The notes under the pieces: generated by a model
Told to the model about the DNA's origin: nothing
The model's database searches: none
What the model saw: only the letters and a program-made list of their open reading frames with translations
Shown here: piece by piece, positions 19,421 through 27,403 of the stretch
How positions within the stretch are numbered: position 1 is the first letter of the stretch
How the letters are laid out: the number at the start of each line of letters is the position of its first letter
Program-made: the position numbers and the translations under genes
Virus record (IMG/VR): IMGVR_UViG_3300020281_000091
Location: 1-30,385 of that record
Source: a virus
Length of the DNA stretch: 30,385 nt
Direction: 5' to 3' (one strand)

Positions 19421-19795
19421 TTAGTCCAGCTGTATGTTAATTTTAATACCACCCGTATGCAGATGCATATGCTTGTCTGGAGCTTTAAATCCTGCTCGAT
19501 CAAGTATGTCTTTACTGGCTTCTAGCTGAACGTACTCACTTCTTGCACCAGTGCTAAGCTCAGACAACTTATGCGCCGCATACGTAGCATTTAGTCCAAG
19601 AGTCTGCTGTATTGCTGTCTGCATATAAGCTTGTACCTTTGGAGTCCGTAATGCCTTGCTAGCAGACACACGACCTGACTCTCCTTTAGCGTAGCCAGCA
19701 ATACCAGCTGCCTCTTTGATACTGCAACCTGTGGCTACAAGCGTATCAACAAGCTTTACCTGTTTGTCTGTTAGTTGAACACTAAGCTCTTTCAT
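19421..19795 (-). CDS. Terminase small subunit candidate
   Basis: 124 residues. The N-terminal part reads LTDKQVKLVDTLVATGCSIK, then EAAGIAGYAKGESGRVSASK, a helix-turn-helix of the small-terminase type. It is followed by ALRTPKVQAYMQ, the usual end of the DNA-binding domain. A helical oligomerisation region comes next (LGLNATYAAHKLSEL). The gene heads the packaging operon. I chose the ATG at 19795 because GGAGG lies 4 bases upstream; an upstream in-frame codon adding 10 residues has no ribosome site. It recognises the packaging site and recruits TerL. The family call is good by motif and position. Confidence 0.8.
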   Translation of the reverse strand: MKELSVQLTDKQVKLVDTLVATGCSIKEAAGIAGYAKGESGRVSASKALRTPKVQAYMQTAIQQTLGLNATYAAHKLSELSTGARSEYVQLEASKDILDRAGFKAPDKHMHLHTGGIKINIQLD

Positions 19796-20022
19796 ATAAC
19801 CTCCACTATTATTATCATCATGCACATAGATCTACCATTGTCAACAGACTCTGTGTACGTTCCACCAAGATCTGACGTTATGTACAGCATACTACACAAG
19901 ACATATTACCATACGCTTTGGCACAAGGTTTGTTTTGCTGCTTTCACTTTTTTATCCATTGCACACATTTGTACTCCATTTCATTAGTAGATTTATTTGC
20001 CCCTTCTGACAAACCTTAGATA
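19796..20022. promoter_or_regulatory. Divergent control region, left half (between TerS and the early operon)
   Basis: Together with the following structured element this is the only long non-coding stretch (421 bases). On the minus strand a perfect TTGACA (19839-19844) lies 17 bases from ATGATG (19816-19821), a plausible late promoter in front of TerS with a weak -10. AGATCT occurs twice (19828 and 19868). The string TTGGCACA at about 19919 recurs at 20147. I see no convincing ORF. Confidence 0.45.
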
Positions 20023-20033
20023 CCAAGTATACA
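20006..20033 (+). promoter_or_regulatory. Candidate early rightward promoter
   Basis: CTGACA (20006-20011) is separated by 16 bases from TATACA (20028-20033). The -10 region AGTATACAGTAAA is nearly the same as AGTATACAATAAA at 20819. If used, transcription would begin near 20040, inside the left arm of the outer stem, so the RNA would lack that arm. Confidence 0.4.
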
Positions 20034-20195
20034 GTAAAGCACCTTGCCATCGAGATAATTGTGCCTCCCAAGTGGGAGGCTCTATTATTGTGTTTCGATG
20101 GCTTCGACAATTCACTCCCAAGTGGTCGTTGTGCTTTACTGTAGACTTGGCACAGGCTCCTCCTAAGTAGTCGTCGTCTAAGGAGTGTCCTTGTG
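20023..20195 (+). ncRNA. Candidate structured RNA / leader of the early operon
   Basis: A nested fold is visible by eye. The outer stem pairs 20023-20042 with 20131-20150 (19 of 20 positions). Inside it, 20046-20053 pairs with 20095-20102 (8 of 8) and leads, via 20055-20059/20084-20088, to a perfect 7-bp hairpin (20063-20069/20074-20080, AAGT loop). A second inner hairpin pairs 20105-20108/20125-20128 and 20113-20116/20121-20124. Just outside, 20151-20161 pairs with 20181-20195 less perfectly. The result is a three-way junction plus one hairpin. GC is near 48% by hand count, against an AT-rich background. Reading frames through it do not resemble phage genes. It ends 33 bases before the first early gene. 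It may be a trans-acting RNA, a leader switch or a DNA-level element; no known RNA class is recognised. Confidence 0.6.
20065..20170 (+). repeat. Three copies of CTCCYAAGTRG
   Basis: CTCCCAAGTGG is at 20065-20075 and at 20115-20125; CTCCTAAGTAG is at 20160-20170. Copies two and three stay similar for 18 bases (15 of 18, all differences transitions). Each copy sits at the tip or descending arm of one of the three hairpins. CCAAGTAT at 20023 is a partial fourth copy. Confidence 0.7.
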
Positions 20196-20228
20196 TCTGC
20201 ATAAATCAACTAACTCATGGAGGTAAAA

Positions 20229-20672
20229 ATGAGTACAACTACTAAAAAAGCAAAACCATCAAAAGCAACCCTTGACCAAATCGTATGGCAATATGTTACA
20301 TACCATACACAAACCTCAGATCTTAGCGAAAAGTACACAGAGGCTAGAATTAACGATCTATGTTTTGTTGCTAATAATAGTTTAGTTTACAAGAAAAAGA
20401 TTATGTCAGATCTTAAAGCTGAACTTAAAACACTTGATGAACAATACTCTGGTTCAGAAGTTCAAGATGTACAGATATACAAGAAAACTATCTTACTCAA
20501 AAGAATGATACCAGAGTTACAATCTCTTAAAGATTATGTAGCAGTAACTGAAAGAGTATACAAGGAACATACTGGTTCTGAGTACAAACATAACGGTGCA
20601 AAGGCTACTATGAAACCTAACGCACAAGCAGTTATGAGTGAACTTAAAGAGCTTATCAACATGGATATATAA
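20229..20672 (+). CDS. First early-operon protein, unknown function
   Basis: 147 residues, lysine-rich, mostly helical with a probable coiled-coil middle (KKKIMSDLKAELKTLDEQY, then KRMIPELQSLKDYVAVTERV). No catalytic motif, signal or membrane segment. I chose the ATG at 20229 because GGAGG ends 5 bases upstream; a further ATG at 20217 would overlap that ribosome site. As the first gene after the structured region it is probably expressed earliest. No family recognised; the gene itself is convincing. Confidence 0.6.
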   Translation: MSTTTKKAKPSKATLDQIVWQYVTYHTQTSDLSEKYTEARINDLCFVANNSLVYKKKIMSDLKAELKTLDEQYSGSEVQDVQIYKKTILLKRMIPELQSLKDYVAVTERVYKEHTGSEYKHNGAKATMKPNAQAVMSELKELINMDI

Positions 20673-27070: not shown

Positions 27071-27403
27071 ATGAATAGATCACAATTCCTAAGAGAAGTA
27101 GGTGACACACTCACAACAAGACAACACACCTATGGACATCCAAGCGAAAACCTAAGATCAATAGCTAAATGCTGGTCAGAGTTTAAAGATGAAAAGTTTA
27201 ATTATCTTGATGTTTGTATTATGATGATACTTACAAAAGCTATTAGATTAAAAGAAGATCCTTTGCATATGGATTCTTATAAAGATATAGCTGGTTATGC
27301 TGCCTTAGCAGCAGAACTTATAAGTACATTAGTTCGAAATGGGGACCATCAAGAAATGGACGACGACCTTGAGAACGACGAAGATCAATGTACGCGTTCA
27401 TAG
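27071..27403 (+). CDS. DUF6378-like protein
   Basis: 110 residues. The order VGDTLTTRQHTYGHPSENLR, then SIAKCWSEF, then DVCIMMILTKAIRLKEDPLH and DSYKDIAGYAALAAEL matches the phage DUF6378 pattern (R-x-x-x-YG-x-P-x-x-N, W, K-x-x-R, D-x-x-DIAGY), which looks like an all-alpha NTP-pyrophosphohydrolase-like helical bundle; function is not established. GGAG precedes the ATG. The last 28 codons overlap the 3' end of the convergent endolysin gene, and that tail (QEMDDDLENDEDQ) is not part of the family core. It follows the terminator-like hairpin. Confidence 0.75.
   Translation: MNRSQFLREVGDTLTTRQHTYGHPSENLRSIAKCWSEFKDEKFNYLDVCIMMILTKAIRLKEDPLHMDSYKDIAGYAALAAELISTLVRNGDHQEMDDDLENDEDQCTRS

Follow-up and report, generated by a model that had tools for sequence, protein, structure and literature searches.

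What does the densely paired stretch between the early and late genes of this marine phage fold into, on which strand, and what might the fold be for? The window, that is the whole stretch of DNA analysed, comprises 30,385 bases of a marine podovirus-like phage whose nearest annotated relative is Pelagibacter phage EXVC031P Hodr (TerL 64% identical). The terS, terL, portal, capsid and tail genes run leftward from 19795 (TerL belongs to phrog_2 and TerS to phrog_2538/51). A rightward early block that starts at 20229 encodes an O-like replication initiator, a RusA-like resolvase, a RecE-like exonuclease, an Erf annealase and SSB. Early gene 1 is one of a family of about 140 aa, with 52 of 84 loci falling into one single-linkage cluster; it had no significant match in Pfam or PHROG, and its structural model is a long helical hairpin of modest confidence (pLDDT 72). 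A small early protein of 110 aa (27071–27403) matches PHROG families labelled phosphofructokinase, an unlikely label for a protein of this size, and the family is probably mislabelled.

Fold and variation of the junction apex

The original prediction described a structured, GC-rich element at 20023–20195, and its component helices are all present: an outer stem with 19 of 20 positions paired, an inner stem with 8 of 8 that bears a perfect 7-bp hairpin, a second inner hairpin at 20105–20128 and a following hairpin at about 20160–20182. The GC content is indeed higher than in the surroundings (0.475 versus about 0.33–0.40). The minimum free energy of 20000–20200 is −80.1 kcal/mol on the plus strand and −81.1 kcal/mol on the minus strand (z −7.8 and −7.9), with none of 200 shuffles as stable, and the reported fold is the most stable 180-nt stretch in the window (−72; the next reaches −55 and the median is −35). 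The stretch is non-coding, as had been supposed, with no reading frame kept across relatives with a coding-like pattern; a protein-coding reading of the junction was rejected on the stops found in relatives and the lack of a codon-position pattern.

Relatives gathered by TerS searches of IMG/VR provided 87 non-redundant junctions. Their best 180-nt folds have a median z of −5.1 on the plus and −5.3 on the minus strand, compared with −2.25 for neighbouring coding control stretches in which the best window was likewise chosen. Covariation, proposed beforehand as the check on selection for structure, was found in the apex and supports that claim. Double compensatory changes occur in 8 of 58 apex pairs in the clade of the window (the window, L006, L008 and L320) and in 34 of 64 in another clade, the latter count being matched by 0 of 500 shuffles and compared with 1–7 for slid structures. 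In Methylophilales phage MEP301, whose TerL is related, no comparable fold was found, and a 14-base pattern search for further apex homologues returned 82 hits, probably mostly by chance.

The closure of the apex appears to have two forms. Segment c, which closes it by pairing with segment b, covaries in L006, L008, L320 and L086, and in several clades this closing helix (b:c) competes with a local 5′ hairpin (a:b); the alternative pairing is clear in several clades and weak in that of the window. A second copy of segment a lies downstream in 21 loci (9.2 expected), and in all 21 the recurring segment is a, never b. A CTCCCAAGTGG-like sequence (CCACUUGGGAG on the minus strand) is found three times in the apex, at 20065–20075, 20115–20125 and 20160–20170; all three copies are identical in L320, and L006 and L008 carry the same base change in two of them, as if the copies evolved together.

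The apex is also exchanged as a unit. Phage L086 is 97–100% identical to the window on both flanks but has an unrelated, shorter apex, the replaced unit spanning about 20017 to 20180 in window coordinates. The same kind of exchange distinguishes L104 from L105 and L106 from L112. As a separate observation, one of the junctions L029 and L038 has an extra structured unit, about 220 nt long, that lies between terS and the apex common to both, which suggests that tandem gain of structured units is also possible.

An inverted copy of the start of gene 1

The existence of a structured element was thus predicted correctly and its extent was not, the true folded unit being 19846–20345. The first clue to this larger structure was complementarity between the Shine–Dalgarno (SD) region of gene 1 and a segment far to its left. 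The fold continues on both sides of the reported element through an inverted copy of the start of early gene 1, which had been overlooked (Table 1). All 500 nt fold as a single hairpin with the reported element at its tip, at −227.4 kcal/mol (z −15.5) on the minus strand and −175.5 kcal/mol (z −9.2) on the plus strand.

Table 1 Features of the early/late junction in window coordinates
Feature	Position	Strand	Details
terS, small terminase subunit gene	19421–19795	−	phrog_2538/51
Candidate promoter of terS and the late operon	19817–19844	−	TTGACA, spacing 16–17 nt, weak −10
Left arm, imperfect inverted copy of gene 1 RBS and first ~39 codons	19846–19993	−	109 of 151 aligned positions identical
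Apex element	19994–20203	−	contains the reported feature; covarying fold
Segment c	20008–20020	−	TCTAAGG...TGTC on minus; pairs with segment b to close the apex
Outer stem of apex, left side	20023–20042	−	pairs with 20131–20150; compensated pairs
Inner 8-bp stem, left side	20046–20053	−	pairs with 20095–20102
Apical 7-bp hairpin	20063–20080	−	loop ACUU on minus; first of three CCACUUGGGAG-like motif copies
Inner 8-bp stem, right side	20095–20102	−	pairs with 20046–20053
Outer stem of apex, right side	20131–20150	−	pairs with 20023–20042
Segments a/b	20177–20191	−	AAGGA-CAC-TCCTT on minus; local hairpin, or b pairs with c
Right arm, antisense strand of gene 1 RBS and 5′ coding part	20204–20345	−	pairs with the left arm
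Early gene 1	20229–20672	+	147 aa; RBS GGAGG at about 20219–20224

An inverted copy of the phage's own gene 1 scores above shuffles in 59 of the 87 junctions and above the 99th percentile of cross-locus scores in 51, whereas the controls, direct-orientation copies and inverted copies of the terS start, gave 0; about a third of the junctions show no copy. The shortest copies take in about 30 nt of coding sequence; the longest, those of L060, L079, L129, L132 and L146, extend over the whole gene and some 35–70 nt more. Long extensions of the arms into terS at low identity were not trusted. Pelagibacter phage Hodr carries an inverted copy too, identical at 81 of 108 positions. The start codon is often deleted in the copy, and differences between gene and copy are equally frequent at the three codon positions (0.21, 0.24 and 0.21).

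The copy follows the gene of its own phage. It matches its own gene 1 best in 32 of 36 loci, and the other four are ties or near-ties with sister phages bearing near-identical gene 1. L016 and L028 have near-identical TerS, a common apex family and different gene 1 sequences, and each copies its own gene 1. At 836 sites where gene 1 differs between phages, a count in which phage pairs overlap so that the sites are not all independent, the copy has the base of its own gene in 76.4% of cases and that of the other's in 8.8%; it is pair-compatible with its own gene at 85.9% and with the other's at 28.6%, and 568 of the 836 differing sites are compensated. In the pair L132/L146 the old mismatches are mostly common to both (46 of about 65 with the identical base), and the copy tracks the new changes in gene 1. 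Since most old mismatches were inherited, this copy was not simply remade.

Strand preference of the pairing

The differences between gene and copy are strongly asymmetric. In a count that includes related loci, 572 are G-U-compatible on the minus strand and 66 on the plus strand; by locus, 54 lean toward minus and 1 toward plus. Because the differences are of the G-U type so much more often on the minus (late) strand, we conclude that this is the strand on which pairing matters. The minus fold is the more stable in all 36 loci tested, by a mean of 52 kcal/mol. A symmetric helix test inside the junctions, independent of the arm counts, gave 203 A.C against 78 G.T, and a helix test by independent clusters pointed the same way (20 versus 5, p 0.004). 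Loops are A-richer on the minus strand (24 versus 5), and exchanges lean the same way whether they go toward G-C and A-T pairs or away from them. An earlier A.C versus G.T count took in coding sequence and gave a larger ratio, and a stricter, junction-restricted version is weak (27 versus 12, p 0.08); the strand conclusion rests on the symmetric scoring (203 versus 78) together with the arm-versus-gene counts.

The original prediction had assumed transcription rightward, from a promoter at 20006, and this mismatch asymmetry contradicts it. The junction is a giant quasi-palindrome in which pairing of the minus strand is maintained and whose apex covaries and is interchangeable.

The mismatches do not follow RNA wobble alone. 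A.G and G.A are as frequent as G.U, which is more than wobble would predict, C is almost never mispaired, and G.T, G.A and G.G are about equally common. Among the changes G to A is the rarest, contrary to the mutational AT bias.

Candidate roles of the hairpin

Of the possible explanations we tentatively favour a hairpin RNA, transcribed leftward, that acts on gene 1. Read 5′ to 3′, the minus strand presents the antisense of the start of gene 1, then the rapidly exchanged apex and then a non-coding imitation of the gene 1 RBS and start, which would fold back on the antisense. In transcription that enters leftward from gene 1, the antisense arm would be the first part made; it could bind the mRNA of gene 1 and contribute to shutting the gene off. 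The imitation arm might then capture the antisense arm in a self-contained hairpin, leaving the effect transient or confined in cis, and mismatches that matter only on the plus strand would keep the gene 1 mRNA open for translation. We take the minus strand to act as RNA because an RNA would be strand-specific by nature and the target arm consists of the gene's antisense; we infer that transcription running leftward out of gene 1 produces the molecule and that its role has to do with gene 1. A leftward promoter right of the hairpin was neither recognised nor consistent across relatives, and a candidate at the hairpin base was discarded since its sequences differ between clades.

The other roles first proposed for the element, a packaging RNA, a rightward leader of the early operon and a DNA origin, turned out to be unsupported or not distinguishable. 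A hairpin of DNA, formed by the minus strand while it is single-stranded, for instance as template of the lagging strand, and used in replication, recombination or packaging, appears unlikely, and keeps its share of probability mainly because G.U does not dominate over G.A. Pairing of minus-strand DNA, or selection against plus-strand pairing, fits the mismatch frequencies as well as RNA pairing does: in DNA duplexes G.T ranks about equal to G.A and G.G, and C is rarely mispaired, the order of preference seen here. Such a structure requires no promoter, and the phage encodes an O-like initiator, a RecE-like exonuclease, an Erf annealase and SSB. It leaves unexplained, however, why one arm follows the sequence of gene 1 and why the start codon is so often deleted in the copy. 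TerS is 99% identical between phages with different apices, so the apex is not the TerS recognition site.

That the palindromes have no selected function, arising recurrently by template switching in replication and being kept matched by arm-to-arm correction, seems improbable. The swapping or insertion of apex units between near-identical phages would suit such an origin, and the very high fraction of tracked sites, even over 450-bp arms, is hard to imagine as the work of selection on single pairs. Against it, L132 and L146 inherit old mismatches yet track new changes, which argues against wholesale recopying, the mismatches are strongly one-sided by strand, and the spectrum of changes, with G to A the rarest, runs opposite to the mutational AT bias.

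We regard as quite improbable a leader of a rightward early mRNA in which the left arm sequesters the gene 1 RBS and controls its translation. In 31 of 87 loci the gene 1 SD region has a complement 160–330 nt upstream at p ≤ 0.05, reaching 10–14 bp in some, and the plus strand of the window still folds (z −9.2). Yet plus-strand pairing is avoided, with 66 differences of the wobble type versus 572 disruptive ones, the plus fold is the weaker in 36 of 36 loci, and no conserved rightward promoter lies left of the arm. The promoter initially suggested at 20006–20035 matches at 9 of 12 positions, the number of such matches being at chance level, and phage L086, although near-identical to the window, lacks the −10 box; a rightward promoter within the left arm was rejected as a chance-level, non-conserved match. 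The element was not assigned to the RBS-sequestering mRNA leaders either, its sense-strand pairing not being under selection (66 versus 572).

The apex can hardly be a packaging RNA like the phi29 prohead RNA (PMC12670572), which it resembles in its size, its three-way junction, its position next to TerS and its conservation of structure while sequence varies, because it has no Rfam match, the motor is a TerS/TerL pair and not the phi29 ATPase, and an unrelated apex can replace it beside an almost identical terS.

Comparison with known systems sets the arrangement apart. At curated score Rfam gave 0 matches for the window and 20 related loci, and at a relaxed threshold nothing credible. Cis-antisense RNAs of phages and mobile elements, such as P22 sar and IS10 RNA-OUT, are antisense to the RBS and start of a gene. 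The right arm here is likewise the antisense of gene 1, complementary to the RBS and start of its target; unlike those RNAs, it faces an inverted, co-evolving imitation of the gene start that would capture it, and no consistent promoter was found. Plant MIRNA genes are born by inverted duplication of their targets and similarly consist of a gene fragment and its inverted copy, whereas the present hairpin belongs to a bacteriophage, has the gene itself as one arm and keeps the match over large divergence. We know of no phage system that keeps a gene matched to an inverted non-coding copy of itself through pairing on one strand. The HK022 put RNA is also a structured phage RNA near the start of an operon, which acts without a phage protein, and comprises about 70 nt in two stem-loops on the sense strand downstream of early promoters (PMC9378689). 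The junction element is 300–1200 nt long, lies on the minus strand and has arms that co-evolve with a coding gene, and membership in the put class was rejected on size and architecture. In open-licence papers, a scope that makes the search weak evidence, nothing relevant to the element or arrangement was found, and the literature yielded no experiments on this phage group.

On balance, it is somewhat probable that the junction represents a new kind of phage control element, in which an early gene and an inverted, co-evolving, non-coding imitation of its start, or in some phages of the entire gene, form a strand-specific giant hairpin on the opposite strand, with site-by-site compensation and a freely exchanged apex. 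If the hairpin acts as RNA, a widespread group of marine phages would control an early gene in a new way; if it acts as DNA, it would be a new replication or recombination structure. In both cases the signal is strong, and the arrangement is testable in a cultured representative, Pelagibacter phage Hodr. Other genomes can be searched for its signature, an inverted gene-start copy that differs from the gene in wobble-type changes on one strand.

Intrinsic terminators (a GC hairpin followed by a U run) numbered 4 on the plus and 7 on the minus strand of the 87 loci, compared with 4.0 and 3.6 expected, and at this chance level the element was not classed as a terminator or attenuator. Several viral contigs, among them L014, L043, L049, L055 and L064, stop inside the junction at less than 200 nt from terS on its upstream side, a larger number than evenly spread ends would lead one to expect; the ends may be assembly breaks at a variable palindrome or a real genome end. 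The −35 box of the candidate terS promoter abuts the end of the left arm and is kept in nearly all relatives, in which the promoter reads TTGACA, 17 nt, NATAAG. After this promoter most relatives (for example L011, L012, L054, L062 and L076), though not the window itself at 19796–19844, carry two runs of 5–8 G a few bases apart, which cover the expected start site and the RBS position.
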